A stretch of 64,000 bases of DNA from a virus: positions 1 to 64,000 of the IMG/VR virus record IMGVR_UViG_3300030328_002321; one strand, given 5' to 3'. Position 1 is the stretch's first letter. Every line of letters starts with the position of its first letter. Shown here one piece after another: positions 27,001 through 44,786 of the stretch. The notes under the pieces are model-generated. The model was not told the DNA's origin, ran no database searches, and saw nothing but the letters and a program-made list of their open reading frames with translations. The position numbers and the translations under genes are program-made.

Positions 27001-27003
27001 GAT

Positions 27004-27024
27004 AAGGGACTTTGTCCCTTTTTT
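27004..27024 (+). terminator. Rho-independent terminator after first early gene
   Basis: Perfect 7-bp stem AAGGGAC/GTCCCTT with a 3-nt TTT loop, followed directly by TTTT. It starts 4 nt after the stop codon. This is the clearest intrinsic terminator in the arm. Confidence 0.85.
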
Positions 27025-27838: not shown

Positions 27839-27935
27839 TAACTATGAGTAGGGTTTTTGTTAATGTCAATCTTATTTAGTCGTAAACTTAGACATTATTT
27901 TTTGTTTTCATAATACTTGTTCCTACTCATAGTTA
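27839..27935 (+). ncRNA. long-stem intergenic RNA element, copy 1
   Basis: A perfect 14-bp helix TAACTATGAGTAGG/CCTACTCATAGTTA (27839-52/27922-35) begins immediately after the stop codon. The 69-nt loop contains TAATGTC/GACATTA (7 bp, 27861-67/27891-97) and then TTTA-GTCG-TAAA. There is no T-run, so it is not a simple terminator. The ATGAG-type 5' arm recurs at 28.8, 31.4 and 44.7 kb. Confidence 0.55.
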
Positions 27936-27941
27936 CCTTTA

Positions 27942-28038
27942 AAAAGACTCACAAACTCTACTTATCATCACTACTTTGATAGATGATGGGAGTATGATAA
28001 GAGTCTTTTATCCTTTAACAAGGTTTGTGATATACCTT
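27942..28038 (+). ncRNA. candidate pseudoknotted leader of the 221-aa gene
   Basis: Stem 1 is AAAAGACTC/GAGTCTTTT (27942-50/28001-09, 9 bp). Inside it, TTATCAT pairs with ATGATAA (27962-68/27994-28000). The bulged ACAAAC (27951-56) can pair with GTTTGT downstream (28023-28), which makes a pseudoknot. AAGGT/ACCTT (28020-24/28034-38) is a competing hairpin. The element ends about 40 nt before the next start codon. Confidence 0.45.
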
Positions 28039-28065
28039 TTTAAAATCACTAATTAATCCATTTAA

Positions 28066-28077
28066 AACCAATTAAAC
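28066..28077 (+). promoter_or_regulatory. AACCAATTAAAC start-proximal box, copy 1
   Basis: Twelve-base box ending 2 nt before the ATG of the 221-aa gene. Five further near-identical copies precede other plus-strand genes, 0-11 nt from their starts. The closeness to the ATG favours a translation role over a promoter. Confidence 0.5.
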
Positions 28078-28079
28078 AA

Positions 28080-28745
28080 ATGGCAAATCAATTAAACAGT
28101 GGTAGTCTTAACACTTTAAAATTAGACGAAACTTTACTATCTCATGTACAAAAAGCAGCTAATGATTCATATCAAGCTTGTTTTGTCGAGAGAATTGACC
28201 GTAATGGTACACCACCAACAGATTCAGATAATGATGAAATAGATGCATTATCTACTCTAAACTATGGTGATTCAAGATTTCAAAGAGGCAGTTTAACTTA
28301 TGTGTATACAAGAATTACACCAGAGAGTATTGCTTTAATGAATATCAAGAATGCTGACGGTTCAAACTTTGACCTTGATGCAGCTGAATTTTCAGCTAAA
28401 ACTACAAAAGCAGGTAAAGTTGTACAAGCGTGTGATTTAAATATCTTAAATCCTACAATTCAAGAATCTACTCATCCAGCAATGGGAATGAGATACAGAG
28501 TTAAGCTTGTAGAAACTCATGAGCCAACACAATGGCAGTTAGACAACAGTGCACATAAAATTAATCCTTCAACTAAAGAAGAATTAACTGTAACTGACCC
28601 AGCAACTGGTGAAGTTAAGAGAATTTATAGTGGACATAAAATGGTATTTGCTACAGCTAACCCTAAACATATGCTTATTGCACATGATAGAGTAGCAGTA
28701 ACTAGTGAATCTAATGTTGTTCAAGAAGAAATGAGTATGATATAA
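28080..28745 (+). CDS. unknown early protein, probably abundant
   Basis: 221 aa, soluble-looking, mixed alpha/beta, few cysteines. Features include an N-terminal Asn/Ser/Leu-rich segment, a central strand region (RGSLTYVYTRITPESIALMN) and KVVQACDLNILNPTIQE. No family that I recognise. It is preceded by two structured RNA elements and an AACCAATTAAAC box and followed by a third element, unlike its neighbours, so it looks tightly regulated and highly expressed. A nucleic-acid-binding or host-takeover protein is possible. Confidence 0.65.
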   Translation: MANQLNSGSLNTLKLDETLLSHVQKAANDSYQACFVERIDRNGTPPTDSDNDEIDALSTLNYGDSRFQRGSLTYVYTRITPESIALMNIKNADGSNFDLDAAEFSAKTTKAGKVVQACDLNILNPTIQESTHPAMGMRYRVKLVETHEPTQWQLDNSAHKINPSTKEELTVTDPATGEVKRIYSGHKMVFATANPKHMLIAHDRVAVTSESNVVQEEMSMI

Positions 28746-28767
28746 CAGATAAGGCAATCTGTGTATT

Positions 28768-28846
28768 GATATAAAATGAGGGAGGAAAATCTGGTTTGTA
28801 CCTATAGGTGCTGTAATCTCAACCCAGTGCTCCCTTGTTTTGTATT
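28768..28846 (+). ncRNA. long-stem intergenic RNA element, copy 2
   Basis: A helix of about 17 bp with four G-U pairs joins the AAAATGAGGGAG arm (28768-84) to CTCCCTTGTTTT and beyond (28830-46). The 45-nt loop contains CTGG/CCAG extended past one mismatch and an inner ACC-TATA-GGT hairpin. It fills most of the gap between the 221-aa and 82-aa genes. Confidence 0.55.
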
Positions 28847-28863
28847 TAATTTAAAATAAGTTT

Positions 28864-29112
28864 ATGGCAAAAAGATATGATATAGAGATACCATCAGTTG
28901 TGGAAAGGACTGTGGTACACGAAGAAATTATTTTTAAAGGAAAGAAAATAATTAGAGAAAGAATTGTAAAGAAAATAAAACTACCTAAAATAATCACGAA
29001 TGATTATAGTTATGAAATGTTAATGGGATTTAAGCCTGGTCTCCCAAGATATGGGAATAAAACTACAGGAATAGAATCAGTTAGTGTCAACATAAATAAT
29101 CATTCGATTTAA
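28864..29112 (+). CDS. hypothetical basic protein
   Basis: 82 aa, rich in Lys/Ile/Val with alternating hydrophobic residues (EIIFKGKKIIRERIVKKIKL), so largely beta-stranded and basic. No family recognised. Starts MAKRYDIEIPSVVERT after the copy 2 element. Confidence 0.6.
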   Translation: MAKRYDIEIPSVVERTVVHEEIIFKGKKIIRERIVKKIKLPKIITNDYSYEMLMGFKPGLPRYGNKTTGIESVSVNINNHSI

Positions 29113-29134
29113 TTTAGGATTTAAAAATTTAAAC

Positions 29135-29251
29135 ATGGAATTAGATACTACAAGAGAAATAGTTATTAATGTAGCAGAGGTAAAATTATTATGGTTATGC
29201 TTAGGTATAATGTTAGGATATGTGCTCTGCGAAATAAAAAATAGACAATAA
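29135..29251 (+). CDS. 38-aa single-span membrane protein
   Basis: Small ORF MELDTTREIVINVAEVKLLW with a hydrophobic segment LLWLCLGIMLGYVLCEI and a basic end. The stop overlaps the next start (TAATG). Coupling and a clean membrane segment support it. No function assigned. Confidence 0.55.
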   Translation: MELDTTREIVINVAEVKLLWLCLGIMLGYVLCEIKNRQ

Positions 29252-29508
29252 TGGGACAAATGAAATGGATAGTTAGTCTTGCAGAAGATGGGAGACTAGA
29301 AGAATACATGAAAGTGTATTATGAAAATTTAGCTAATAACTGTGCTGGCTTTACATATGATGGAAAGTTTTTAAGTATGATGAGAGCTACAGCGGTATTA
29401 AAGTTATTAAAAGAAGCTAGTTCAAAATATAATTCGTATCTTGAAGAGCGAGCTGAACAAGAGCAAGCACAACGAATATATAATAACGAAATAGACGCAA
29501 GAAAATGA
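29251..29508 (+). CDS. hypothetical helical protein
   Basis: 85 aa, helical, Glu/Lys-rich, with MGQMKWIVSLAEDGRLEEYMK at the start (split reading, no motif) and a Gln/Glu tail. It overlaps the polymerase start by 4 nt (ATGA), so it is co-translated with the DNA polymerase. Function unknown. Confidence 0.6.
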   Translation: MGQMKWIVSLAEDGRLEEYMKVYYENLANNCAGFTYDGKFLSMMRATAVLKLLKEASSKYNSYLEERAEQEQAQRIYNNEIDARK

Positions 29509-31403
29509 TTTATTTAGTAGATGGGTCAGTAGAAACGATACCTTCTCCACATTATCAGTTGGCAACGATTGATGATGTGGTTAAGTATTGTGAGAACAAA
29601 GAAATACTTGGTGTAGACACGGAGACTGAAGGTTTTGACTTTACTTGTAAAAAGATGATTATGTTTCAAATTGGTGACAATGAAAAACAATTTGTAATTG
29701 ATACTCGTATTATAGGTATTGAACCTTTACGCCAAATACTAGAAAATAAAACAATCACTAAAATATTTCATAACGCAAAGTTTGACTACAAATTTATTAA
29801 ACGATGGTCTAATATAGATTGTGAAGGTATTTATGACACCTTTTTAACTGAGCGTGTTCTTAATTGTGGTAAAGATAAGTATGGATATGGATTGAAAGAT
29901 GTATGCAAAAGATATTTGAATGTAGATTTAAATAAAGATGTGCGTAATCAGTTTATAGGACTTACAGGTCAACCATTTAAAGATGATCAAATTGTGTACG
30001 GTGCAAAAGATGTAGAATATCTTATTAAAATACGTACGCATCAACTACCTCTTATAGATAAGTATAAACTACATAATGTAGTTGAACTTGAAAATAAAGT
30101 AGTATCCTCATTTGCAGATATAGAATACAATGGTTTAGAACTAGATGTAGAACAATGGTCAAAGTTAGAAGCTCTTAACACTGACAATGCTAATAAATTA
30201 GAACAAGATCTAGATACCATGATTAGAAATGATTACAGAGTTAAACACTTTGTATCTAAATATGTGCAAACAGATATGTTTACTCCAATTGAAGAAATTA
30301 GAGATATAGATATAAAATGGACATCACCTAAACAAGTGTTAGAAGTTTTTAAATGTCTTATTCCTAATCTTGACAATGTTAATGGTAAACAAATGTATAA
30401 ATATAGATTTAAGTTTCCTCTTATTGATAAATATGTAAAATATAAGGAAGCTATGAAATTATGTACATCTTATGGTGATGCATTCTTTAAAAATCTAGCA
30501 AGTGATAACAAAATACATACAAACTTTCATCAGATACTAGATACTGGTCGTGTAAGTAGTAGTAAGCCTAACATGCAACAGATACCTGCAGATAATATGT
30601 ATAGAAATTGTTTTACAGCTCCAGATGATTGGAGTTTTGTAAGTTCTGACTACAGTTCACAAGAATTGAATGTAATTGCATTTGGCTCTAAAGATCCTGT
30701 ATGGCTAAAAGCTTTAGAACAAGAACAAGATCTACACTCAACATGTGCAGAGCTAGTTTATGGGGAAGAATGGATTAATGCAGCTGAAGACAATTGCCTT
30801 TATATGAGTAAAAAACAAAAGTGTAATTGTCCTTCACATAAAAAATTAAGAACAAATGTCAAAACTATTAATTTCGGGCTTGCTTATGGGATGGGCCCTA
30901 ATAAGCTTTCTGATACTCTTAACATCAGTTTGGATGCAGCTAAAGAGCTCATCGAAAAGTATTTCCAAGCGTTCCCAGCAATCAAAGGGTTCCTAGATAA
31001 GCTAGGTAACTTTGGTAAGAAATTTGGATATATTAAAACATTTCCTCCATATAATAGGAAAAGATGGTTTAGTAATTGGTATCCAAAGATTTGGAACAAT
31101 AAATCATCTATGATGGAGCTTGGTAGCATCGAGCGTGCTAGTAAGAATACACCTATACAAGGTGCATCTGCAGATATGACTAAACTTGCACTTATACTAA
31201 TGCGAGATTATATAAAAATAACTGATTGTCCTGTAAAACTAGTAATGACAGTGCACGATCAGATAGATACTATATGTAAAAATGATTATATAGATACGTG
31301 GACAGTTAAAATGCAAGAATTGATGGAACTAGCTGCAAATCAAATAGTAACAAACAATTTATTAAAAGCAGAAGTAACAGTTAGTAATTGTTGGGAAAAA
31401 TAA
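29505..31403 (+). CDS. family A DNA polymerase with 3'-5' exonuclease
   Basis: 632 aa replicative polymerase. The proofreading exonuclease is complete: Exo I in VDTETEGFDF (about D38, E40), Exo II in FHNAKFDYKF (about residue 90), Exo III in YGAKDVEYL (about residue 168). Polymerase motifs: A in SSDYSSQELN (about D381), B in KTINFGLAYG (about residues 452-461), C in VHDQID (about residue 583). The position equal to E. coli Phe762 is Phe. A small Cys/His insertion (CLYMSKKQKCNCPSHKK) before motif B could bind zinc. No 5'-nuclease domain; the separate exonuclease at 44.8 kb may supply it. Confidence 0.95.
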   Translation: MIYLVDGSVETIPSPHYQLATIDDVVKYCENKEILGVDTETEGFDFTCKKMIMFQIGDNEKQFVIDTRIIGIEPLRQILENKTITKIFHNAKFDYKFIKRWSNIDCEGIYDTFLTERVLNCGKDKYGYGLKDVCKRYLNVDLNKDVRNQFIGLTGQPFKDDQIVYGAKDVEYLIKIRTHQLPLIDKYKLHNVVELENKVVSSFADIEYNGLELDVEQWSKLEALNTDNANKLEQDLDTMIRNDYRVKHFVSKYVQTDMFTPIEEIRDIDIKWTSPKQVLEVFKCLIPNLDNVNGKQMYKYRFKFPLIDKYVKYKEAMKLCTSYGDAFFKNLASDNKIHTNFHQILDTGRVSSSKPNMQQIPADNMYRNCFTAPDDWSFVSSDYSSQELNVIAFGSKDPVWLKALEQEQDLHSTCAELVYGEEWINAAEDNCLYMSKKQKCNCPSHKKLRTNVKTINFGLAYGMGPNKLSDTLNISLDAAKELIEKYFQAFPAIKGFLDKLGNFGKKFGYIKTFPPYNRKRWFSNWYPKIWNNKSSMMELGSIERASKNTPIQGASADMTKLALILMRDYIKITDCPVKLVMTVHDQIDTICKNDYIDTWTVKMQELMELAANQIVTNNLLKAEVTVSNCWEK

Positions 31404-31477
31404 GTATGAGTGAGGTCTAATTAATCGGGTGTTTAAGAGACATCCTTAATATTAAATGTTTGCCTCACTCATATTTA
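31401..31477 (+). ncRNA. long-stem intergenic RNA element, copy 3
   Basis: The helix TAAGTATGAGTGAGG/CCTCACTCATATTTA (31401-15/31463-77) is 15 bp with one G-U pair and includes the polymerase stop codon. The 47-nt loop holds GGGTGT/ACATCC with ATTAA/TTAAT outside it, a nested three-helix layout as in copies 1 and 4. No T-run. Confidence 0.58.
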
Positions 31478-31490
31478 ACAATACAAGTAA

Positions 31491-31579
31491 TTACGGCGGG
31501 ACGGGCATAAAGAAAATAGAGCTGCACGAAGTGGTAACTAATTCATAACCCGTTAATACTATTGTCCGTCCCGTGGTAA
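31491..31579 (+). ncRNA. GC-rich long-stem intergenic RNA element
   Basis: A 17-position helix (31491-507/31563-79) pairs TTACGGCGGGACGGGCA with TGTCCGTCCCGTGGTAA, with one mismatch and two G-U pairs. It is far more GC-rich than surrounding DNA. The 55-nt loop has a small CAC-GAA-GTG hairpin. Sequence is unlike the ATGAG-type copies but the layout is the same. It ends 15 nt before the next ATG. Confidence 0.55.
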
Positions 31580-31594
31580 ATTAAATTTAAAATT

Positions 31595-31867
31595 ATGAAA
31601 GAAGAAACTAAATATTTTATAGAAGAACTAGAGCGTAGACAGCATCTAGAAGAATTATATAATCAAACTTATATTGAGTTTGATACTTATTTTAAAGATA
31701 GTGGTAAAATAGAAGTAAAAGCTAGAAATTATAGCTACGATGATACAAATTATAGTAAAATTGTTAAAGCTCCTGAAGAATATGTAGAGCCTCCAACACT
31801 TTTAACTATTAAAGAGGAGAATGATATGACTAAATATAAACTTAAAAAAGATAGAGTGGTATGGTAA
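31595..31867 (+). CDS. hypothetical protein
   Basis: 90 aa, charged and Tyr-rich (ELERRQHLEELYNQTYIEFD), helical start then beta-type end. No family recognised. Its end overlaps the winged-helix gene by 7 nt. Confidence 0.6.
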   Translation: MKEETKYFIEELERRQHLEELYNQTYIEFDTYFKDSGKIEVKARNYSYDDTNYSKIVKAPEEYVEPPTLLTIKEENDMTKYKLKKDRVVW

Positions 31868-32124
31868 AGAAAATTAGACAGACTCAAGTAGAGTCTTTAA
31901 AAAAGACACAAAAAAATATAGGAGAAAAACAACAAACTGTTTACTCCGTAATAAAATCTAAAGGTGGGGCTACTAATAGAATGATTGCCAAGCATTTAGG
32001 ATGGGACATTAATAGAGTCACAGGTAGAGTAACAGAACTTGTAAATATGGGAATGGTTACAACTACAGGAACATTTAAAGATAAAGAAACTAATAGAACA
32101 GTTACATTATGGCAAGTGTTATGA
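31861..32124 (+). CDS. winged-helix protein
   Basis: 87 aa. A basic helical N-terminus is followed by a compact winged helix: QTVYSVIKSKGGATNRMIAK, then a recognition-type helix INRVTGRVTELVNMGMV and a wing TGTFKDKETNRTVTLWQ. This resembles MarR-type or phage-helicase-loader wHTH domains. It directly precedes the SF2 helicase (TGA overlaps the ATG), so it may assist that enzyme or regulate this unit. Confidence 0.72.
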   Translation: MVKKIRQTQVESLKKTQKNIGEKQQTVYSVIKSKGGATNRMIAKHLGWDINRVTGRVTELVNMGMVTTTGTFKDKETNRTVTLWQVL

Positions 32125-33269
32125 GTAAAATAAATGCAATAAGAGATAAAGAACAAAAAGCTGCCTTAAATGCATGGGCTAAACAAAACTTTATTGGTTC
32201 TATAATTGCAGGTACAGGTTTTGGTAAGTCTAGATGTGGTGTATTAGCAGTAGAATATGCACTTAAAGATGGAGGAAATGCTTTGATACTTGTCCCTACT
32301 GTACAATTGCAAGAACAATTTGTAGAAGAATTTGAGAAATGGGGTGTATCTACAGATAATGTAGAAATACTTTGTTATCAAAGTGCATATAAATTAAAGC
32401 GTAAAAGTTACACTATAGTTGTATGTGATGAGATCCATTTAGGTTTATCTCCAGAATATCGTAAATTCTTTGAAAATAATGCTTCTAAAATGCTATTGTG
32501 TATGACTGCAACTCTTCCAGAAGAGCAAGAATACAAAGATATACTTTCTAAAATGGCACCAACAGCTTATAAAATTACATTAGATAGATGTGTAAAATTA
32601 GGATTTGTAAGTCCTTATAAGATTACTTGTATACCGGTTAAATTAACTAGCGAAGAAAAAGAAAATTATAAAAAAGTAAATAATTCTTTTGTTTATAATA
32701 AATATCAGCTGGGACAATTTGACGCTTTTAATGAGGCAAGTAGAATATTAAAAAGTAAAACTGCAACTGGTCCTCAAAAAAGAGCTGCAGTATTATTTTG
32801 GAAAGCTATTAGAGATCGTAAAGCTATTGTAGATTATGCAACAAATAAAATAAAAAAATTTAAGAGCATTTATTATAAAAATACAGATAAGAAAATACTT
32901 GTATTTGGAGGTGCTAATGATTTTACAGATCAATTGTGTGATTCTATAGCTCCTTATGCAATGGCCTATCATTCTAAAAAGACTAAAAAACAAAGAGATG
33001 TGGCCCTTGAATTATTTAAAACAGGAGATATAAATGTACTTTGTTCAACAAAAGCTCTTAATCAAGGTTTTGATGTTCCTAATGCAAATATGGGTATAAT
33101 TTGTGGTATTACAAGCAAAGCTTTATCTATGATACAGCGTGTTGGACGCCTTGTTAGATTTCAGGAAGGCAAAATAGGGGAAATCATAATATTGTATGTT
33201 GCTGATTCTCAGGAAGAAAAGTGGTTAAAGAACGCTACAAAAACATTAAAGAATGTTGTGTGGAAATAA
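32121..33269 (+). CDS. SF2 (DExH) helicase
   Basis: 382 aa from the ATG that overlaps the upstream stop (ATGA); an ATG 12 nt earlier is an alternative. RecA-like domain 1 has GTGFGKSRC (motif I, about residue 31), the VVCDEIHLG DExH box (about residue 103) and CMTATLP (motif III). Domain 2 has CSTKALNQGFDVP (motif V) and IQRVGRLVRFQEG (motif VI). It is a single-chain ATP-dependent translocase or helicase of the UvsW/T5 D10 size class, for fork remodelling, recombination or origin melting. Confidence 0.92.
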   Translation: MSKINAIRDKEQKAALNAWAKQNFIGSIIAGTGFGKSRCGVLAVEYALKDGGNALILVPTVQLQEQFVEEFEKWGVSTDNVEILCYQSAYKLKRKSYTIVVCDEIHLGLSPEYRKFFENNASKMLLCMTATLPEEQEYKDILSKMAPTAYKITLDRCVKLGFVSPYKITCIPVKLTSEEKENYKKVNNSFVYNKYQLGQFDAFNEASRILKSKTATGPQKRAAVLFWKAIRDRKAIVDYATNKIKKFKSIYYKNTDKKILVFGGANDFTDQLCDSIAPYAMAYHSKKTKKQRDVALELFKTGDINVLCSTKALNQGFDVPNANMGIICGITSKALSMIQRVGRLVRFQEGKIGEIIILYVADSQEEKWLKNATKTLKNVVWK

Positions 33270-33282
33270 TTATTTAAAATAT

Positions 33283-33313
33283 TTGTATATAATAACAGAA
33301 TTTATTATATTTG
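33283..33313 (+). promoter_or_regulatory. host-type promoter upstream of 183-aa/DnaB-like unit
   Basis: TTG at 33283-85, a 20-nt spacer, then TATATTTG at 33306-13, an exact fit to the Bacteroidota TTG-N-TAnnTTTG pattern. It lies in the 96-nt gap after the SF2 helicase stop and about 50 nt before the next ATG. Confidence 0.7.
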
Positions 33314-33365
33314 CTTTAGATTTTGAAAATAGTATAATAGAACTTTTTATAACCTTTACTGCCAT

Positions 33366-33917
33366 ATGAATGTTGATATAGATTTTGAAGTGTTAGAGCA
33401 GACAGGAATGTCTGCAGACGATTTTCTATATCTTTATATAATACATAAGGAAAGTTATACTAAATTAATCAATCTTAATCTTAAACCAAATTTAGAGAAG
33501 TTACAAGAAGAAGGATATATTAAGCTAGGCGAAGCACCTGATCAACATTTTATTAGACAAGAGTTTATAGATCTCTTTTCTTCTAATTTTGATCAGATGT
33601 TTGCTGAGCTTATAGGTACATATCCTATGAAAGTAATGACTACTGATAGAGGTATTAGAGTGTTACATGCTAAGGATCCAGATGCTAAGGCCAATGCTAA
33701 ATGTAAAGCAAAGTACAAAAAGATTGTAGGAGAAAAAGTATATAAACATAGACATATAATGAAATGTTTAGATACACAACTTACATTAGAAAAACATAAT
33801 CTTGCATACATGCAAAACTTAGAAACATGGATTAATAACCATACTTGGGAAAAGTATGAAAACTTAGACGAAAATGACACAAAACAAGAAACTAACAGAA
33901 TCACAAGATCCCTTTAA
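33366..33917 (+). CDS. hypothetical protein, possible helicase partner
   Basis: 183 aa, mostly helical, with a repeated Lys/Ala region (KDPDAKANAKCKAKYKKIVG) and no motif I recognise. It ends 44 nt inside the DnaB-like helicase gene and has its own promoter, which suggests co-expression with the helicase. A loader or priming role is inference from placement. Confidence 0.6.
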   Translation: MNVDIDFEVLEQTGMSADDFLYLYIIHKESYTKLINLNLKPNLEKLQEEGYIKLGEAPDQHFIRQEFIDLFSSNFDQMFAELIGTYPMKVMTTDRGIRVLHAKDPDAKANAKCKAKYKKIVGEKVYKHRHIMKCLDTQLTLEKHNLAYMQNLETWINNHTWEKYENLDENDTKQETNRITRSL

Positions 33918-34818
33918 GAACAAAGGGTTTAAAAGCATAAGAAAAGCAATTAGCGCATCGCTACATCAAGTAGCAGATGGAATGAATGGTAAACGTCAAG
34001 TTTATCCTACTAAATGGACAAGACTAAATAAAAATTTATTAGGTGGTTTGCAGCCAGGTAAAATGTATGTAATAGCTGGTCGTCCAGGTGTAGGTAAATC
34101 AGCGTTTAGTAATCAATTAATTTTTGACTTATTAGATAAAAATATAGGTAAAAACCTATTAGTATTATATTGGTCTTTTGAGATGCCGGGTTATCAGCAG
34201 ATACTACGTGCAGGTTCAAAAGGTATAAATAAACAAGTAGGAGAATTATTATCTGTAGGTAAAAAATTAGAAAACGAAGCATACCAAAGATTTAAAGAAG
34301 AAGTTATGAAATATGGGAACTATCCTGTTTATTTTAACAATGTTCCAAGAGATATAGAATTTATTAAAGAAGCTAATGTAGATATAGCTAACAGACGTCC
34401 AGACTCAGTTGTAGTTAATGTGTTTGACCACTCTCGATTAATTTTAAGTAATAGAGATATGGAATTACAAAAACTAAATGATGTGAGTAAAGGGTGTATG
34501 TGGATGCAAGCAAATTTAGGTTGTATTAATATATTATTATCTCAGCTTAATCGTAATATAGAATCTGAACATAGAGCTAAAGCACAATATCAGCCTTTGT
34601 TAACAGATTTATTTGGTGGAGATAGTATTGGTCAAGATGCACATGTAGTAATGATGCTTCAACGGCCTAATGATTTGTATGGTATTACAGATAAATACTG
34701 TAATGAAGATCCAATAGGATTATTAGCTGTACATATAGAGAAGAATCGTGATGGTTTATTAGGTATGATACCTTATCAAGCAGAAATGTCAACATTTACA
34801 ATAAAAGAAAGATTATGA
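33874..34818 (+). CDS. DnaB-like replicative helicase
   Basis: 314 aa, RecA-type core without the usual long N-terminal domain. AGRPGVGKSAFSNQ at about residues 67-80 is Walker A. The DnaB-type H1a segment LVLYWSFEMP follows, then VVVNVFDHSR (Walker B region) and INILLSQLNRNIE with the Gln of motif H3. GGDSIGQDAHVVMMLQRP is the H4-type region. It unwinds DNA at the fork. Length fits a minimal helicase that needs a separate primase, which is present at 37 kb. Confidence 0.93.
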   Translation: MTQNKKLTESQDPFKNKGFKSIRKAISASLHQVADGMNGKRQVYPTKWTRLNKNLLGGLQPGKMYVIAGRPGVGKSAFSNQLIFDLLDKNIGKNLLVLYWSFEMPGYQQILRAGSKGINKQVGELLSVGKKLENEAYQRFKEEVMKYGNYPVYFNNVPRDIEFIKEANVDIANRRPDSVVVNVFDHSRLILSNRDMELQKLNDVSKGCMWMQANLGCINILLSQLNRNIESEHRAKAQYQPLLTDLFGGDSIGQDAHVVMMLQRPNDLYGITDKYCNEDPIGLLAVHIEKNRDGLLGMIPYQAEMSTFTIKERL

Positions 34819-34979
34819 TGTGGAGTAAATACTTATATGAACTATTTGTAAGAGAAAATACAGATGAAAAATTATTAAAAAATATAGAAAAATATGAGCA
34901 AAAGAAACGGGAGGAACAAGATAAAATTAGGAGTCTTAAACGAAATAAATCAGATAGACAAAAGAATGAAACGCTTTAA
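34815..34979 (+). CDS. 54-aa hypothetical helical protein
   Basis: ORF starting MMWSKYLYELFVRENTDEKL, overlapping the helicase stop by 4 nt (ATGA). It is helical and highly charged (YEQKKREEQDKIRSLKRNK). The overlapping start supports it. It shares 86 nt with the next small ORF in another frame. Confidence 0.55.
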   Translation: MMWSKYLYELFVRENTDEKLLKNIEKYEQKKREEQDKIRSLKRNKSDRQKNETL

Positions 34980-35055
34980 AAACGATGAAGATAAAGTTTC
35001 ACAATTATTGTCTAGAAGAAATACTTTAAGATCTAAATTAAAAACTAAAAAATAA
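34894..35055 (+). CDS. 53-aa basic coiled-coil protein, overlapping frame
   Basis: ORF starting MSKRNGRNKIKLGVLNEINQ with a basic coiled coil to the end (DKVSQLLSRRNTLRSK). It overlaps the 54-aa ORF by 86 nt and fills the gap up to the Sak4-like gene (7 nt away). Both frames keep plausible helical proteins, which is unusual; one may be the real gene and the other a by-product of Lys/Glu-rich codons. Confidence 0.45.
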   Translation: MSKRNGRNKIKLGVLNEINQIDKRMKRFKNDEDKVSQLLSRRNTLRSKLKTKK

Positions 35056-35062
35056 TATATAG

Positions 35063-35770: not shown

Positions 35771-35781
35771 TTATTAATTAA

Positions 35782-35793
35782 AACCAATTTAAC
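35782..35793 (+). promoter_or_regulatory. AACCAATTTAAC start-proximal box, copy 2
   Basis: Differs from copy 1 by one base (T for A at position 9). It ends directly at the ATG of the 122-aa gene, which rules out a promoter for that start with any leader. Confidence 0.45.
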
Positions 35794-36162: not shown

Positions 36163-36163
36163 T

Positions 36164-36174
36164 AACCAATAAAT
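36164..36174 (+). promoter_or_regulatory. AACCAATAAAT start-proximal box, copy 3
   Basis: A shorter variant of the box, 8 nt before the ATG of the SSB-like gene. It starts 1 nt after the upstream stop codon. Confidence 0.4.
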
Positions 36175-36182
36175 AAATAATT

Positions 36183-36956: not shown

Positions 36957-37957
36957 TGGCTATTGATCGTAGAGATAGTAACGATCACCTACATACCGAT
37001 GTCATACTTAGTAAAATTACTGAGTATGACATTTTTAGGTATTATTGTCCCAGTTTTAAAATACTTGGTAAGAAATTTAAAAGTGATCTTAGAGAAGATA
37101 AATCACCTACGGTTTCTATAATACCTTACAATGGCAAATTATTGTATAAAGATTTTGGTTCTTCTGATCATACTTTTGATTGTTTTAACTATGTAAAATT
37201 TAAATACAATTGTGATTTCTACTCTGCGCTAAACATTATTGACAATGATTTTAATCTTAACCTCAGTTCTAAAAAAGCTGGTATAAAATTTACTATGGGT
37301 CTTATGGCTTATAGACAAAATAAAGTACCATCTTATACTAAGTCTGAGGTTATTATTAAAAAGAAACGTCGACAATGGACTAGAGATGATGCAAAGTTTT
37401 GGGTTCAATATTTGGTTAGTAAGAAAATATTAACTATGTTTGGAGTCGAACCTATAAGTCATTTCTGGGTAAACAGTACTAGATTTACTTGTAAATCAAT
37501 TACTTACGCTTTTAGATTCAAAAATCGATATAAAATTTATTCTCCTTATGAAGAAACAAATAAGTGGTTAAGCAATACAAAAAAGACAGATGTTCAAGGC
37601 TATGACCAACTCCCGTATAAAGGTGAGAGACTTATCATTACTTCATCTCTTAAAGATGTTATGTGTTTGTATGCAGCAGGCTATAATGCTATTGCGCTAC
37701 AAAGTGAGATGCAAATACCTTCAGAAAAATTAGTAAAAGATTTAAAAGATAGATTTACTATAATAGATATTTTATACGACAATGATTTCGACAAAGTAAC
37801 AAATCCAGGCCAGACAATGGCTAAAAAGATTTGTGACTTATATGGTTTTAATAATATCTGCATACCTGATTATTATCAGTCTAAAGATCCATCAGACTTA
37901 ATTAAACAGATGTGTAGTTTTAATGAACTTAAAAACATATTAAATGAATCGAGATGA
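36956..37957 (+). CDS. DnaG-type primase
   Basis: 333 aa from the ATG that overlaps the SSB stop (TAATG); a longer reading begins 42 nt earlier but is less likely. The N-terminal part (YYCPSFKILGKKFKSDLRED, then LLYKDFGSSDHTFDCFNYV) keeps the shape of a primase zinc-binding domain with few of the cysteines. A TOPRIM-like domain follows: LIITSSLKDVMCLYAAGYNA and DILYDNDFDKVTNPGQ. The usual TOPRIM Glu seems replaced (TSSLKD), while the DND motif is kept. It synthesises RNA primers for the DnaB-like helicase and DNA polymerase. Confidence 0.8.
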   Translation: MAIDRRDSNDHLHTDVILSKITEYDIFRYYCPSFKILGKKFKSDLREDKSPTVSIIPYNGKLLYKDFGSSDHTFDCFNYVKFKYNCDFYSALNIIDNDFNLNLSSKKAGIKFTMGLMAYRQNKVPSYTKSEVIIKKKRRQWTRDDAKFWVQYLVSKKILTMFGVEPISHFWVNSTRFTCKSITYAFRFKNRYKIYSPYEETNKWLSNTKKTDVQGYDQLPYKGERLIITSSLKDVMCLYAAGYNAIALQSEMQIPSEKLVKDLKDRFTIIDILYDNDFDKVTNPGQTMAKKICDLYGFNNICIPDYYQSKDPSDLIKQMCSFNELKNILNESR

Positions 37958-39113
37958 AATTATTGAAAAATTTAGAAAACAAAAAGGGTGGTTAAAAAAA
38001 GGAGCGCAATGGTTAGCTGATAAATGGGAAGTAGATATTGCTATTATTAAAGATTGTAAAAAAATTGTATCTTCTGAAGAATGGGTACAAGAACGCATGA
38101 ATAATGATAATGGTCATGAGCTTAGTCAAAGTCAAGCTTTTTCAAAACATTTACTAGATAATGGTTTAACAATGGCAGATGTAAAGTCTGTTAAGTTTTG
38201 GCAAAATTTTAACGGGGAACAACGTTACAGTATAGTAACACACAATCAGTGGCATGAACAGCCCCAAGTTAAAGAAGAATTGCTAAACTATATTAAATCT
38301 ATATCACATAAAGTACCTAAATATAAATGGAAAAAAGCTAAAGATCCTATATGCTATGAAATATCTTTACCAGATATACATTATGGTAAAATTACAGATG
38401 AATCACCTGATGCATTAGAAAAACATTATATGCAAGCTATTGTAGATCTACATAGAAAAGCAGATGGTCTTGATATAGAAAGATTTTTATTGCCAATAGG
38501 TAATGATGGTCTAAATTCAGAAGGTTATTCACGAGCTACAACTAAAGGCACACCTCAACAAGATAGTATGCTATGGCGTCAGTCTTTTAGAGGTTATTGG
38601 CATTTAGTTACCAAAGCTATTGATTATTTAACACAATTTGCCCCGGTAGACGTTGTTGTAGTACAAGGTAATCATGACTTTGAACGTATGTTTTATGCTG
38701 GAGAAGTTTTAGCTGCAGTATATAACAATAATAAAAACGTTACTGTAGATAATGGTTTAGATGCACGTAAATACTACGAGTATGGAACAAATATGATAAT
38801 GTTTACACATGGGGACAAAGAAAAAGCGCAAGAGTTACCACTTTTGATTGCTACAGAACAACCTGAAATGTGGAGTAGATGTAAAATTAGAGAAGTACAC
38901 TGTGGACATAAGCATAAAGAAATGCTTAATGAGTACATGGGTACTAAAGTTAGATTTATACCATCTATTTGTGCTAACGACGCTTGGCATAAAACAAAAG
39001 GTTATGTAGGGACACTTAGATGCGGACAAGCATTTATTTGGAATAAGAATAGAGGTCTGGAAGGGTACCTACAAACAAATATTATGAGCTATGGCTTGGA
39101 AGAGACGAAGTAA
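37944..39113 (+). CDS. calcineurin-like metallophosphoesterase
   Basis: 389 aa. Metal-binding motifs in order: SLPDIHYGK (D-x-H, about residue 143), LPIGNDGLNS (G-N-D in place of GDxxD), VVVQGNHDFERM (GNHD, about residue 242), MFTHGDKEK, and VHCGHKHKEM (GHxH, about residue 318). The N-terminal 130 residues include a helix-turn-helix-like KKGAQWLADKWEVDIAIIKD. It may be an SbcD/Mre11-type DNA nuclease acting in recombination or a phosphodiesterase. It overlaps both neighbours, so it belongs to the replication unit. Confidence 0.87.
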   Translation: MNRDEIIEKFRKQKGWLKKGAQWLADKWEVDIAIIKDCKKIVSSEEWVQERMNNDNGHELSQSQAFSKHLLDNGLTMADVKSVKFWQNFNGEQRYSIVTHNQWHEQPQVKEELLNYIKSISHKVPKYKWKKAKDPICYEISLPDIHYGKITDESPDALEKHYMQAIVDLHRKADGLDIERFLLPIGNDGLNSEGYSRATTKGTPQQDSMLWRQSFRGYWHLVTKAIDYLTQFAPVDVVVVQGNHDFERMFYAGEVLAAVYNNNKNVTVDNGLDARKYYEYGTNMIMFTHGDKEKAQELPLLIATEQPEMWSRCKIREVHCGHKHKEMLNEYMGTKVRFIPSICANDAWHKTKGYVGTLRCGQAFIWNKNRGLEGYLQTNIMSYGLEETK

Positions 39114-39531
39114 ATCTAAAACTAAAGTTAAAAATGCTAAAAAGTCTACATATAAAGGTTTAGATTTTAAATCTAACTTAGAATTACACTGTTATAAGAA
39201 ATTAGAAACAGCTAAAATTGAAGTTAAATATGAAGAAGAAACCTTTACAATTTTTCCAGCAACAATTTACCCACAAGCATGCTATGAAGGTACCTCTAAA
39301 AAGCTTTACAATAAAGGTAGTAAGATTAGACCAATTACTTACACACCGGATTTTGTAGATCCAAAAGGTAAATTTATTATAGAAACAAAAGGCTATGCCA
39401 ATGAGTCTTTTCCTTTAAGATGGAAGTTATTTAAAAAACATCTTAAAGATAATAATCATCACTATGTGCTTTTTATGCCAAGAAACAAAAAGCAAGTAGA
39501 TGAGGTTGTAGAATTAATAAAACAGTTATAG
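39091..39531 (+). CDS. PD-(D/E)XK-type endonuclease
   Basis: 146 aa. A basic N-terminus (MAWKRRSKSKTKVKNAKKST) is followed by KSNLELHCYKKLE (catalytic Glu of the first helix, about residue 30), TYTPDFVD (about residue 86) and FIIETKGY (about residue 98). This E...PDF...ExKG order is that of T7-endonuclease-I-like and VSR-like phage nucleases. It could resolve branched DNA. It overlaps the phosphoesterase gene by 23 nt. Confidence 0.83.
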   Translation: MAWKRRSKSKTKVKNAKKSTYKGLDFKSNLELHCYKKLETAKIEVKYEEETFTIFPATIYPQACYEGTSKKLYNKGSKIRPITYTPDFVDPKGKFIIETKGYANESFPLRWKLFKKHLKDNNHHYVLFMPRNKKQVDEVVELIKQL

Positions 39532-39630
39532 AGTAAACCTAGGTGGTTACCCCTAGACGGGCATTATAGCGAATGATTGACAAAACAACGAGTTATATTC
39601 CGGTTATATGTAAGTCCGCGTTTATTCTAT
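39528..39630 (+). ncRNA. long-stem intergenic RNA element before the Zn protein
   Basis: An 11-bp helix with one G-U pair joins ATAGAGTAAAC (39528-38) to GTTTATTCTAT (39620-30); it overlaps the upstream TAG stop codon. The 81-nt loop begins with CTAGG/CCTAG (39539-43/39552-56). It lacks the ATGAG arm but has the same span and stop-codon-overlapping position as copies 1 and 3. Confidence 0.48.
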
Positions 39631-39635
39631 TTATT

Positions 39636-39647
39636 AACCAATTAAAC
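39636..39647 (+). promoter_or_regulatory. AACCAATTAAAC start-proximal box, copy 4
   Basis: Identical to copy 1. It lies 10 nt upstream of the 66-aa zinc protein start and follows the long-stem element. Confidence 0.5.
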
Positions 39648-39657
39648 ACTTTAAATT

Positions 39658-39858
39658 ATGGCTGAAACCGTTAGCCCTTGCTGTGGCTATGAATACAGCG
39701 AAGTAACATTTCCATGTGGATGCGAAATGTACCAATGTAACAATCCCAAATGTAACGATCATTTTGATGAGCCTATAGATGACTATGAATATAGACAACA
39801 AAGGCTTGATGAAATTGCAGAAGCACGTGCAGATGAAGCTCGTGATATGGGATACTAA
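39658..39858 (+). CDS. small zinc-finger-like protein
   Basis: 66 aa. A compact metal-binding region holds CCGYEY, CGCEMYQCNN and KCNDHF (about residues 8-36), followed by a charged helix (EYRQQRLDEIAEARADE). It looks like a small zinc finger regulator. Its own box upstream and RNA element suggest strong expression. Function unknown. Confidence 0.75.
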   Translation: MAETVSPCCGYEYSEVTFPCGCEMYQCNNPKCNDHFDEPIDDYEYRQQRLDEIAEARADEARDMGY

Positions 39859-39862
39859 TATA

Positions 39863-39874
39863 AACCAATTAAAC
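39863..39874 (+). promoter_or_regulatory. AACCAATTAAAC start-proximal box, copy 5
   Basis: Identical to copy 1; 9 nt before the rIIA-like start, just after the zinc protein stop. Confidence 0.5.
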
Positions 39875-39883
39875 ACAAATTTT

Positions 39884-42628
39884 ATGAGTATTAAAACTAT
39901 TGATAAGCCTATGCAAGGTAGCGCCGGCATAGCAAAGAAAATTAACAAAGGCGCTGAGAAGATGGTATTTGACATTCTTCAATCTACACAATATTCTATG
40001 CCAATTCAGTCTACTATTAGAGAACTTGTTACCAATGCATGTGACTCTCAGCGAGAAAAAGAAGTAGCAATAGAAATATTGACAGGTAAAAAGAAAGTTG
40101 AAGACTATTACATAGAACGCCATGGTGCGCAGTATGAAGATAGTAATTTTAATAAAAATTATTATAATCTAGCACATTTACAACATGATAAAAATCATAT
40201 TGATTTATTATATACACAAAATGAAGGTGTTGGATATTGTGATATATTTTCAGTTACTGATTATGGTGTAGGTATTGGATCAAGACGTTTAGAAGGTATA
40301 TTGGAACTGGGTTATTCTACGAAAAGAAATACCAGTGAAAATTTTGGTGCCTTTGGTCTTGGAGCAAAAGCTGCATTATCAACCGGTGTAGATTTCTATA
40401 CTATAGAAACTATATACAATGGTATGAGATTTAAATGCAACTGTTATAATTACAAAACTGATTTTATTATACCAGCTTTTAATATAAAAACAGGAATGCA
40501 GAATAAATTTATAACTTTTAGTGACGGTAGTAAAGTATATTATGAGCATTCTAATGAAGTAAATCAAACTACTATATCATTTGGTGTAAAACGTCACAAT
40601 CGTAATAAGTTTGAAGAAGCTATTGAAGAACAATTAATGTATTTTGACAACGTTAATTTTAATATTAAGTATGAGGGTGGTGAGTCTAGAGAAATGCATT
40701 TTAAAACTGAAGTACTTTACAACTCTAAAAACATAATAATTGGTGACAGTTACTATTTTAGTAAACCACATATTGTTCTTGTTAAAGATACAGATGCTTC
40801 TACAGGTATTAACTATGGTTTTATTGATTTTAAAGAACTAGAAATGCAACAAATGTATGGTTGTGTTGCTTTCAAATGTCCTGCTAGACAAGTGGTCACT
40901 AATGAAGACGGTACAGAAACTGTATTACAAGAAGGTGTAGATGTTACTCCATCTCGTGAGAAAGTTATATGGAACGAAGCTACTAAAAAATACATTAAAA
41001 GTGTAATTGAGTCAGCTGCTCAAGAAGCTAGTGATATGGTGGAAGAGCAATTGGAAGAAACTGATTTCTTGAAATGGATTGATAAATGTAGATCTATTAT
41101 ATCTGGGGACTCTGGTGAAAATAAAATCTTAAGTAAGATTGCGCGGATTATTGATAAAGACTTAATTAAACCTAAGTTTGGTCCTGATCCTAGAATTAAA
41201 TATAGTTCTATAACTAAATTATTTGATGGTCTAAAACTTATGAGACCAGTTTTAATAAATAGTACTATGGAACGAGAACCAGTAAAAGATTGGGGTGGAT
41301 TTGATGCTAAACATTTTTATGAAAGAAGAGAACAGTTTAGTAAATATAAAGATTCTTATTTACAACAATTAGATATAGAAGATTCTTATCTATCTAATAA
41401 AGTTTGTACTTACACTTTAGAGGATTTAAACTCTAGATTTAGTGAGTCTATACTTAAAGCTACAGGTGATGCACAAGTTAAACTTTTGAATGAAAAAGCT
41501 AGAGTAACAGCTAAAAGAACAGCAGTTCTTAAGTTTATTGAAGCTTCTGAATGGTATAAAAACTATGATGAAGTAGAAGTACCTGAAGAGTTTATTACAA
41601 AATGTAAAGATATAGAAGAAGAGCAATTAGAAAAAGCTAAATATAATAATTTAACAGCTGCAGAGCGCCGTGAGATAGAAAAGCGGATGGTAGCATATAC
41701 TGTTAGATGGGATGATCGTAAAGATGATAGGCTTACATTAGAAAAAATTGAGCCTAAAGCTAAAGATCTTATGGGTAGCTCTAATAGCATTTATTATTGT
41801 ACTAAAGAAGATGAAGATAAAATGAAAGCTGCTGCTTTATTACTTAAAGAAGTTGTTCCACATTTTAAAGAAGTTTATCCAAATGCTAGTTGGCATGATA
41901 ATGGTAATCAAAGAGAGTCTTCAAGTTATCCTATTTATTGGTATGAACATCCGCCAGTTAGATTTTTACAGTGGCAGCACAAAGGTGAGTATTATGAATG
42001 GGCTAATCCTAAACAAGGATGGGATACACCACAATTAATACGTGTTAGTCAAAATAAGGTTAAGTTTATTACACAAAACCCTAATGTTAAACACATTGAC
42101 GAACTATTTTTACAATTAACAGATAATAACGGATATACTATGGACAATTCACTTATTAAATATTACACAGCACATAAATTAGAGAAAATAAATAAATTTA
42201 GATTTATGCAAGGTTTAAAATGTATACACCCTGAATTACAAGAAGATTATTGTGAACTCATGGATTTGAGGAATAATAATTATTCAGAATGGGAATACAG
42301 AGAGGTACGCAAAATGGCTCCCTCTATAATTAAGCATATGGATAAATTATATGAATTTCAAAAGTTTATAACAGACTGTGATGATTCAGATTTAATAGAA
42401 GAAAAGTCTAAAGAACTGTTTGTTTTGTCAGATATTAGTGAGGCTAAAGCTGCTGATTTGAATATATTAGCTAAGTATGATAATATAGTAGAATTTGCAG
42501 AAGAAGTTAAACCGCTATTAGATGAATTATCGTGTCTTGAGAGTAGAGAATGTGATATGTCTCCTGAACTTGAGAAAGAGGTTAGAGTTTATTTAAGAGC
42601 TAAATCTAGAGAAGTATGGGAAGATTAA
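39884..42628 (+). CDS. rIIA-like: rIIA-like GHKL ATPase
   Basis: 914 aa, starting MSIKTIDKPMQGSAGIAKKI. A longer reading from 39779 would overlap the zinc gene in another frame and skip the start box, so I reject it. GHKL motifs: IRELVTNACDSQRE (N box, about residues 45-58), VTDYGVGIG (G1, about residue 125), FGAFGLGAKAAL (G2, about residue 156). The rest is helical and charged. This is the layout of T4 rIIA, a membrane-associated ATPase that counters prophage exclusion. It is far longer than a bare ATPase domain. The rIIB-like partner lies after the radical-SAM gene. Confidence 0.8.
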   Translation: MSIKTIDKPMQGSAGIAKKINKGAEKMVFDILQSTQYSMPIQSTIRELVTNACDSQREKEVAIEILTGKKKVEDYYIERHGAQYEDSNFNKNYYNLAHLQHDKNHIDLLYTQNEGVGYCDIFSVTDYGVGIGSRRLEGILELGYSTKRNTSENFGAFGLGAKAALSTGVDFYTIETIYNGMRFKCNCYNYKTDFIIPAFNIKTGMQNKFITFSDGSKVYYEHSNEVNQTTISFGVKRHNRNKFEEAIEEQLMYFDNVNFNIKYEGGESREMHFKTEVLYNSKNIIIGDSYYFSKPHIVLVKDTDASTGINYGFIDFKELEMQQMYGCVAFKCPARQVVTNEDGTETVLQEGVDVTPSREKVIWNEATKKYIKSVIESAAQEASDMVEEQLEETDFLKWIDKCRSIISGDSGENKILSKIARIIDKDLIKPKFGPDPRIKYSSITKLFDGLKLMRPVLINSTMEREPVKDWGGFDAKHFYERREQFSKYKDSYLQQLDIEDSYLSNKVCTYTLEDLNSRFSESILKATGDAQVKLLNEKARVTAKRTAVLKFIEASEWYKNYDEVEVPEEFITKCKDIEEEQLEKAKYNNLTAAERREIEKRMVAYTVRWDDRKDDRLTLEKIEPKAKDLMGSSNSIYYCTKEDEDKMKAAALLLKEVVPHFKEVYPNASWHDNGNQRESSSYPIYWYEHPPVRFLQWQHKGEYYEWANPKQGWDTPQLIRVSQNKVKFITQNPNVKHIDELFLQLTDNNGYTMDNSLIKYYTAHKLEKINKFRFMQGLKCIHPELQEDYCELMDLRNNNYSEWEYREVRKMAPSIIKHMDKLYEFQKFITDCDDSDLIEEKSKELFVLSDISEAKAADLNILAKYDNIVEFAEEVKPLLDELSCLESRECDMSPELEKEVRVYLRAKSREVWED

Positions 42629-43479
42629 TAACTAAAGATATAAGAAAAACATTTAAGATTCGTGCTTCTGGACGATCTACAGATTTTATATCTCCTAGTT
42701 TTGGACATGGCTGTTTATATAATTGTTCTTATTGTTATATGAAACGTCATAAAGATAAAGGTTTGTCTATTGCTGTAAATACCGGTGATATATTAACAGC
42801 GATTAATAATCATGTATATTTTACAACAGTAGATAAACCTAATCAAACTCATGCAGAATACACCACTTATGATATTAGCTGTAACGAAGATTTTGCGTTG
42901 CATGCTAAATATCATGATTGGAAAAGAATATTTGAATTCTTTAGAGATCATCCTATAGCTATGGGCAGTTTTGCAACAAAATTTGTAAATCCTGACTTAA
43001 TTAACTTTGATCCTCAAGGTAAAATACGTATTAGATTTAGTTTAATGCCTCAGCATAAAGCAGATCTACACGAACGAGGTACTAGTAAAATAATAGATAG
43101 AATAAAAGCTATTGATGCATTTATTGATGCTGGATACGATGTACATGTTAATTATAGCCCTATTATAGTATATGATGGATGGCTAAAAGATTACAAATAT
43201 GTATTTGATATGATGAACGATTATGTTACATATAAAGATCAAGTTTTAGCAGAATGTATATTTTTAACTCACAATTTTAAGAAGCATGTTATAAATTTAG
43301 GTAGACACCCAGATACAGAAGTAGATTTATGGGTTCTAGACAAACAAGAAATAAAGCGCTCTCAATATGGAGGAGAAAATATTAGATATAAACTAGGAAT
43401 GAAATCTGAATATATAAAACAATTTACAAAATTACATGAAGCAACAATACCGTGGAATACAATACGGTATATTTTTTAA
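42616..43479 (+). CDS. radical SAM enzyme, spore-photoproduct-lyase-like
   Basis: 287 aa. The motif SFGHGCLYNCSYCYMKRH at about residues 29-45 gives the CxxxCxxC iron-sulfur site. Later parts (FAMGS-like GSFATKFVNPDLI, LMPQHKADLHERGTSKIIDR, HVNYSPIIVYDGWLKDYK) match the spore photoproduct lyase/SplB-type barrel. It may repair UV thymine lesions or modify another substrate. It overlaps the rIIA-like gene by 13 nt and precedes the rIIB-like gene by 17 nt, a position not typical for SPL. Confidence 0.82.
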   Translation: MGRLITKDIRKTFKIRASGRSTDFISPSFGHGCLYNCSYCYMKRHKDKGLSIAVNTGDILTAINNHVYFTTVDKPNQTHAEYTTYDISCNEDFALHAKYHDWKRIFEFFRDHPIAMGSFATKFVNPDLINFDPQGKIRIRFSLMPQHKADLHERGTSKIIDRIKAIDAFIDAGYDVHVNYSPIIVYDGWLKDYKYVFDMMNDYVTYKDQVLAECIFLTHNFKKHVINLGRHPDTEVDLWVLDKQEIKRSQYGGENIRYKLGMKSEYIKQFTKLHEATIPWNTIRYIF

Positions 43480-43489
43480 CCAATTAAAT
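43478..43489 (+). promoter_or_regulatory. AACCAATTAAAT start-proximal box, copy 6
   Basis: Differs from copy 1 in the last base. It overlaps the radical-SAM stop codon and lies 7 nt before the rIIB-like start. Confidence 0.47.
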
Positions 43490-43496
43490 TTAAATT

Positions 43497-44663
43497 ATGA
43501 TTACAATTAATGTTATTGAAAACAAAATCTGTGGAAGTTATGGTGATACGCCATTCACAGTTGATTACAGTAAAGAACTGTATGATAGTATGAATGCCCT
43601 AGCAGTAGCTAGTGCTACAGTAGATACAATAGAAGAATACAATGAAATATTGGCTGCATTTGCGCCTTTATGCGTTGTAGATTATACTAAAACTATTGAA
43701 ACACAATGTGAATATATTCACGTTAATAAGGTTACAGGAGAATTCTTTCTTAAGCATAATGGAGTGGTATCAACGATACCTATGCCACAAGCGTTAGTAG
43801 ATAGAATATTTGATTCCTTAGATAAAGATCTAGACTTTATGCCTTTAATTAAAATGTGGACTAGATGGTTGCGTAACCCAATCTTGTGGAGAAAAATGAA
43901 GCAAGGTCATGGGAACGATTTCTGTGAGAGGTTCTTTAATTTTGTAAATATGCAATATGTGCATCCAAAATATAAAGATGAGCTTATAGAACAAGGTCTT
44001 ACTGATGAAGCAGCTTCTAAACGAGCAACAATGTACCAGATGAAAATCACCCATGAGGGATTACTAAATGGTTATAAAGTCTCAAGAGAAGTGCTTCATA
44101 AGTATGACGCAGAAACCGGTGAACAAATTGATCGTTACAAAAGAACGTTTAATGTTGATACTGGTGAAATAGAAGGCAATGGATTACCAGAGCACGTAGA
44201 AGATAGATTGTTTGAACCAGCTGTTATGGGTAACGGTGGTGATGCATTTTTCTGTGAAGGTGCAAACGGTTACGCAAATCCAGGGCATTTTATTAAAGTA
44301 GGTTGTACCCATAGACTTGCAGATTGGAGTCAAGTTAACGTTAATGATACAGTATCTTGCGTTAAAGGTCTTCATATCGGTGGGTTAAAATATATTGCTT
44401 GGTATAGTGGAGAAATTCACAATATCTTTGTAGATCCTATGCATATCGGGGCAGTGCCTTGTGATGAAGACGGAGCTATTAGATGTAAGCAATATTTTGT
44501 TCATTCTTCCCTAGTGGGTGTGAATGGATCTATTTACCACAGCTCTAGCTATGCAGCTATGACAGACGCTGAATGGGATGACATGCGCGCAAAAGCAGTG
44601 CAAGAAAGGTCTGAACGTAAAGCTCAAAGTGACAGGGAAGTTGCAGAGATCAATGCTCTGTAG
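43497..44663 (+). CDS. rIIB-like: rIIB-like protein
   Basis: 388 aa. The N-terminus is a small beta domain (ITINVIENKICGSYGDTPF). The C-terminal half has the conserved blocks I associate with rIIB: DFCERFFNFVNMQYVHPKYK, FFCEGANGYANPGHFIKVGC and VKGLHIGGLKYIAWYSG. T4 rIIB works with rIIA; here both are present in one unit, separated by the radical-SAM gene. It ends with TAG and is followed by a long-stem RNA element. Confidence 0.78.
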   Translation: MITINVIENKICGSYGDTPFTVDYSKELYDSMNALAVASATVDTIEEYNEILAAFAPLCVVDYTKTIETQCEYIHVNKVTGEFFLKHNGVVSTIPMPQALVDRIFDSLDKDLDFMPLIKMWTRWLRNPILWRKMKQGHGNDFCERFFNFVNMQYVHPKYKDELIEQGLTDEAASKRATMYQMKITHEGLLNGYKVSREVLHKYDAETGEQIDRYKRTFNVDTGEIEGNGLPEHVEDRLFEPAVMGNGGDAFFCEGANGYANPGHFIKVGCTHRLADWSQVNVNDTVSCVKGLHIGGLKYIAWYSGEIHNIFVDPMHIGAVPCDEDGAIRCKQYFVHSSLVGVNGSIYHSSSYAAMTDAEWDDMRAKAVQERSERKAQSDREVAEINAL

Positions 44664-44676
44664 CTAGTGTTTAATT

Positions 44677-44770
44677 GGTAAGATATGAGGGGAGGTTAGT
44701 AATTTAATTAATAACTTTCAGCGGTTATACTTTGTGATAATTACAATTCCTCCCCTTTATATCGTTTACC
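44677..44770 (+). ncRNA. long-stem intergenic RNA element, copy 4
   Basis: Core helix GATATGAGGGGAGG/CCTCCCCTTTATATC (44682-95/44749-63) with one bulged T and one G-U pair. It extends outward through GGTAA/TTTACC with small bulges. The 53-nt loop holds GTAATT/AATTAC and inside that ATAAC/GTTAT, a three-level nest. The GGGGAGG and CCTCCCC arms resemble Shine-Dalgarno and anti-Shine-Dalgarno sequences. It ends 16 nt before the exonuclease start. Confidence 0.57.
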
Positions 44771-44786
44771 TTAAAATTTAAAAAAA

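Follow-up and report, generated by a model that had tools for sequence, protein, structure and literature searches.

The rightward arm of a marine crAss-like phage, at 26.7 to 46.8 kb of the window (the 64,000 nucleotides at positions 1 to 64,000 of the 85,958-base IMG/VR virus record IMGVR_UViG_3300030328_002321), has short intergenic gaps with long-stemmed structures. These raise the question of whether they are genuine RNAs and, if so, what role they play in an arm that encodes a DNA polymerase, helicases, a Sak4-like protein, and exonucleases. Given that its large terminase is ∼42% identical to those of gut crAss-like phages and that matches to phage families were obtained for its portal, major head protein, and terminase, the designation “crAss-like” holds for this phage. 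The initial annotation, made from the window sequence, listed four such elements and treated them as a single family. The folds are real: marine crAssphage relatives carry several folded RNAs, each on a long variable stem, in short gaps between early genes, and the elements of the window are structured RNAs that are under selection in the sense strand and represent at least five families.

Structured RNAs selected in the sense strand

The elements delineated in the window are as follows (P1 denotes the outer helix):

27839..27935, + strand: element H, P1 27839-27853/27921-27935, with an inner hairpin and the 3' motif UCAUAAUACUUGUU
27941..28010, + strand: element K, stem AAAAGACTC/GAGTCTTTT with inner helices, adjoining H
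28768..28846, + strand: element I, P1 28768-28784/28830-28846 around the core AAAAUCUGGUU..CUGUAAUCUCAACCCAG
31401..31477, + strand: element A, P1 31401-31416/31462-31477, with the core hairpin GGGUGUUUAAGAGACAUCC followed by UUAAUAUUAAAUGUUU
31491..31579, + strand: element C, P1 31491-31507/31563-31579, with the core CAUAAAG..GUUAAUACUAUUG and an extra inner hairpin
44677..44770, + strand: element B, P1 44677-44695/44749-44770, with the inner helix GUAAUU/AAUUAC, the hairpin AUAACUUUCAGCGGUUAU, and ACUUUGUG

The four long helices of the initial annotation, with stems of 11 to 17 bp and branched loops of 45 to 69 nt, are all present. Compared with 200 dinucleotide shuffles per element, they fold with z-scores from −4.3 to −6.4 (H, −23.7 kcal/mol, z −4.3; I, −28.5 kcal/mol, z −4.6; A, −28.3 kcal/mol, z −6.4; B, −29.7 kcal/mol, z −4.4). 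That list missed C, which directly follows A (z −3.0), and K, which has a weaker stem (z −3.7). Element C of the window was also found, at 55 bits (E value of 4.8e-14), by a covariance model that contained no window sequence. Three of the gaps have unbroken helices, 15, 16, and 11 bp long; none of 60 shuffles reached these lengths, and no helix longer than 6 bp turned up when 29 coding windows from the same arm were examined. The 17-bp helix at 28768 was left out of this test solely through the limit that the test set on G-U pairs.

Relatives of the window were collected by protein search as 80 IMG/VR contigs with DNA polymerases 69 to 95% identical (L-numbers below denote fetched loci and G-numbers denote related virus records). 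Pattern scans keyed on core sequences, with the outer stem left free, matched A in 37 stretches, C in 51, and B in 33, corresponding to ∼30, ∼50, and ∼32 unique copies, respectively, since some stretches share one contig. Because only the core was fixed, P1 could vary freely in these scans, and its alignment was set by the core anchors.

P1 turned out to be compensated in all three families. In B, P1 had 93 cells changed on both sides versus 29 in shuffles, and in C the respective numbers were 67 and 14; none of the 500 shuffles reached the score of either family. The 28 aligned B sequences changed on both sides at 10 of the 12 pairs of the outer helix (15 such pairs overall), with 91.9% of the cells paired as opposed to 45 to 63% when the partner was slid by one to three columns. 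The corresponding values for the 36 sequences of C were 95.2% and 34 to 55%, and the anchored P1 of A was compensated likewise. Two of the outcomes that the initial annotation had named as refuting its proposal, lack of covariation and lack of structure in homologous gaps, were checked, and covariation and structure were both found.

The outer helices of A, B, and C contain G-U or U-G pairs 72 times and A-C or C-A combinations 5 times, which indicates selection on a sense RNA rather than on DNA or an antisense RNA and bears out the predicted conservation of compensated helices in the sense strand. These counts were used in place of reverse-strand stem counts, which are uninformative as an orientation control, the stems being symmetric. 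The same bias makes it extremely improbable that the inverted repeats act at the DNA level, as a cruciform, an origin, or a hairpin promoter of the virion polymerase, even though they lie in an arm thought to be transcribed by that enzyme. Promoters of the N4 type are short DNA hairpins with a small loop, whose size is far exceeded by stems of 11 to 17 bp and loops of 45 to 69 nt.

In contrast to P1, whose sequence is almost freely rewritten provided that pairing holds, the core bases are nearly invariant, with long unchanged stretches such as those around CAGC-GUUAUA-UUUG in B and UUAAUAC in C. This invariance is overstated by sampling, as part of it comes from the scan patterns, which demanded those letters; however, two B copies that came from a profile search outside the pattern (L061 and L079) still retain most of the core bases. 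The cores of the four elements first listed are unrelated, and each has its own relatives, so that the proposed single family resolves into four. The ATGAG...AGG string described as common to the 5' arms does occur in the window, but corresponding junctions of relatives do not preserve it, and the recurrent trait of the arms there is their purine richness. Similar 3' motifs adjoin P1 in A (UUAAAUGUUUUG), C (UUAAUACUCUUG), and H (CAUAAUACUUG), and one lies within the core of B (GGUUAUACUUUG); this likeness could hint at a common partner.

The remaining families are sparser. Several distinct P1/core versions of H are found among the fetched loci, with P1 ranging from UAACUAUGAGUAGG to UUGCCAGAGGUG and the 3' motif retained. 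The H pattern matched 118 stretches in IMG/VR, nearly all by chance; eight were retained on the basis of P1, including the window and one probable chance match (L257). Element I has two real relatives besides the window, K is retained in several (a cluster of 6), and type D is represented by three contigs only.

Gene junctions and the exchange of cores

The genes that flank the elements are as follows:

28080..28745, + strand: gene for a 221-aa protein with no family match, upstream neighbor of I and downstream neighbor of H and K
29505..31403, + strand: A-family DNA polymerase gene, followed by A and C; no other slot is sampled as well as the junction downstream of it
43497..44663, + strand: gene with a weak RIIB-like match, upstream neighbor of B
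44787..45539, + strand: exonuclease gene (phrog_107), downstream neighbor of B

The placement of the elements between stop and start codons, noted in the initial annotation, recurs in the relatives. Not one of the 112 unique copies of A, B, and C lies inside a gene, and in 94 of them both neighboring genes point in the same direction, the exceptions being mostly doubtful small open reading frames or contig ends. P1 begins at a median of 3 nt after the stop codon (in element A of the window, within the stop codon of the DNA polymerase gene) and ends at a median of 22 nt, most often 16 to 17 nt, before the next start. No promoter-like or host-type promoter sites were seen beside the elements, which fits an operon that is transcribed through them; the virion polymerase of crAss-like phages has been reported to transcribe early and replication genes (PMC10136315). 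The promoter-like string ATAATATAG that precedes some B copies was discounted, as the TAG within it frequently belongs to the stop codon of the preceding gene.

Elsewhere in the window, a host-type Bacteroidota promoter pattern, TTTG-N-TATATTTG, is found at 33282-33313 in a 96-nt gap whose sequence is 85 to 94% identical in several relatives. The segment 28018-28079, before the gene at 28080, is 83 to 89% conserved in many relatives and is perhaps a phage promoter. A 22-bp inverted repeat at 15248-15335, inside the leftward gene 14992-16077, forms a helix stronger than any other in + strand coding sequence.

None of the well-sampled families tracks a single gene. The neighbors fall into 9 upstream and 11 downstream protein clusters for A, 13 and 15 for B, and 12 and 24 for C. 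A role as leader for one specific downstream gene is therefore unlikely, the more so because one copy of A (in L092) sits at the end of an operon, where the next gene is convergent and none follows in the sense direction. Nor do the elements lead the genes of one pathway as a riboswitch would, with 9 to 13 upstream and 11 to 24 downstream clusters per family. This lack of a tie to one kind of gene makes new ligand-binding (riboswitch-like) domains or self-cleaving ribozymes quite improbable, although both are suggested by the conserved unpaired bases in junction-like cores and the free outer stem. Known classes of such RNAs are absent, judging by Rfam searches of six loci at E values up to 1 and of the window at the gathering score.

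The same junction can be occupied by different elements. The slot after the DNA polymerase gene contains, depending on the relative, A, B, C, A+C, B+C, D, D+C, E+C, F, G, or a short spacer only. The junction at 44664-44786 holds B in the window and in L171 and an A-like core in L094 and L104; the window and L094 share the upstream coding end, the stop codon, the spacer, and the base of P1 (GGTAAGATATGAGGGG ... CCCCTTTATATC) and differ in the core. At 28746-28863, I is found in the window, L085, and L114, and another core in L018, L032, and L086; L003 combines the latter with a further element, L095 also has another core, and more distant relatives carry plain hairpins with T-runs (L043, L052, L060, and L061) or long AT-rich hairpins. 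Cores are thus swapped as cassettes at gene junctions among related phages. We know of no other phages with such RNA modularity, in which a core is swapped within a retained stem. Natural experiments are provided by closely related phages with unlike cores at a given junction.

Such exchange, along with the spread of one family over many junctions, could suggest selfish mobile hairpins. That is very unlikely for elements that are usually single copy, sense, and intergenic, with strongly selected cores and pairing. Among the 30 related records scanned, B and C are single copy in every one of the 12 with a strong match, and C is present in all three terminase score groups. In four of the records (G020, G024, G001, and G018, containing L164, L182, L019, and L155, respectively), the terminase matches cross 1 to 3 in-frame TAG/TAA codons, which may reflect stop-codon reassignment or interrupted genes.

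Putative roles at transcript boundaries

The favored interpretation, to which we assign a probability of about 0.42, is that the elements are transcript-boundary structures that bear distinct RNA domains. They would be transcribed together with the early/replication operon, and P1 would be the common working part that marks the boundary. Where a T-run follows, P1 might act as a 3' end resembling an intrinsic terminator; where it does not, as in the window, P1 might be a point of cleavage or an exonuclease stop that protects the 3' end of the upstream mRNA. The next gene would be left with a short, unstructured, AU-rich leader, commonly of 16 to 25 nt. The core can be envisaged as a separate RNA domain on P1, most likely protein bound or active in trans, with one function per family; this would account for the usual single copy of each family per genome.

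Runs of five or more T residues directly follow P1 in 18 of the 28 B copies and 4 of the 36 C copies, compared with 4.8% of background windows. The statement in the initial annotation that no terminal T-run is present is thus true of the window and untrue of the B family. The T-runs in B and the exchange with plain terminators at one junction point to transcript-end formation. A second role, specific to the core, is suggested by core conservation and by the prevalence of single copies. In the window, plain terminator-like hairpins are also found at 27003-27024 (AAGGGACTTTGTCCCTTTTTT) and 46812-46838 (AAAAGAGGGGGCAATTCCCCCTTTTTT), the second of them between convergent arms.

Several observations weigh against a boundary function. 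The window elements and most C copies lack a T-run, and their branched loops of 45 to 69 nt are unusual for a terminator, which would have a short hairpin loop. The near-invariant unpaired core bases exceed the needs of a terminator or a processing stem. Nor does the DNA polymerase junction need a boundary, as no element is present there in many relatives. In a rival reading, P1-closed RNAs of 80 to 110 nt would be excised from the operon transcript as small-RNA cassettes that act in trans on host or phage targets, their position being incidental. The near-invariant cores, the usual single copy of B and C per genome, the many different neighbor genes, the copy of A without a downstream gene, and the T-run after most B copies all agree with this idea, which is nonetheless somewhat unlikely: the tight fit from stop to start suits a cis role too, and the slot is common to plain terminator hairpins. 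Boundary elements and small-RNA cassettes can be separated by transcripts alone, so confidence in the former is no more than moderate.

A third possibility, drawn by analogy with the RNase III sites of T7 early RNA, is that these are dedicated endonuclease processing sites of a polycistronic early mRNA. The elements do resemble such sites in being intergenic, sense, and built on a long helix of free sequence in the early/replication arm, with cotranscription judged from gene spacing and the absence of promoter-like sites, and a parallel exists in Ruminiclostridium, where stem-loops between genes guide the processing of an operon (PMC10311766). However, a nuclease specific for double strands would need no set of different conserved, mostly single-copy cores, and the phage record contains no RNase III domain, so that the enzyme would have to come from the host. 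Processing sites of this kind are accordingly improbable.

One can also imagine a modular repertoire of single-copy noncoding RNAs in marine crAss-like phages, with P1 as a common, sequence-free adaptor by which any of many cores can be inserted at gene junctions. Recombination in P1 would exchange the cores, which would thereby form a diversifying kit, such as one of host-takeover or counter-defense RNAs that the early operon releases; we regard this as speculative and rather unlikely.

Comparison with known systems

The absence of a described counterpart, stated in the initial annotation, was corroborated. A search of the window (A, B, C, H, and I) with the Rfam 15 covariance models gave no matches at the gathering score, and six loci with examples of B, C, D, E, F, and G, searched at E values up to 1, matched only GOLLD in L044, outside the elements. 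A, B, and C were absent from 50,697 isolate phage records by blastn. In GTDB genomes, the B pattern had no matches and the A pattern had 24, all without P1 and taken as chance. No paper describing these RNAs was found in a literature search that reached few subscription papers or preprints. Few known viruses are as abundant as the crAss-like phages, and such noncoding RNAs are undescribed there in the literature found. The new RNA families, of which at least three (A, B, and C) are solid and several are sparser, come with covariation that makes their structures testable at once.

The GOLLD RNA (RF02032) is likewise a phage noncoding RNA and occurs in one of these phages (L044, positions 675-1060, 219 bits, upstream of the B and C copies of this marine crAss-like contig), but it is ornate, ∼400 nt long, and unrelated to the elements in size and sequence. 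The manA and wcaG motifs of marine cyanophages are structured RNAs tied to particular metabolic genes (PMC2864571), whereas the elements show no gene preference and do not match them. Y RNAs, which are bound by Ro60/TROVE proteins, are similar in their length of ∼80 to 110 nt and in the paired ends that close a branched core. This link, prompted by the TROVE gene of crAss001, was set aside, since no TROVE domain (PF05731) was found in G000, the window phage, or in 30 related records, many of them partial, and the elements have no Rfam match; a host Ro60 could conceivably be the partner.

The RNase III sites of T7 early mRNA and the stem-loops of the cip-cel operon (PMC10311766) share with the elements long intergenic helices of variable sequence in a polycistronic transcript. 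They differ in that the elements, known here from their sequences, bear several strongly conserved cores, each usually present once per genome. Intrinsic (Rho-independent) terminators lack the conserved branched loop of the elements and have the T-run that is missing in the window and in most C copies; like the elements, they place a stem right after the stop codon, and they share with them the T5 or longer runs of most B copies and a slot that plain terminators occupy in relatives.
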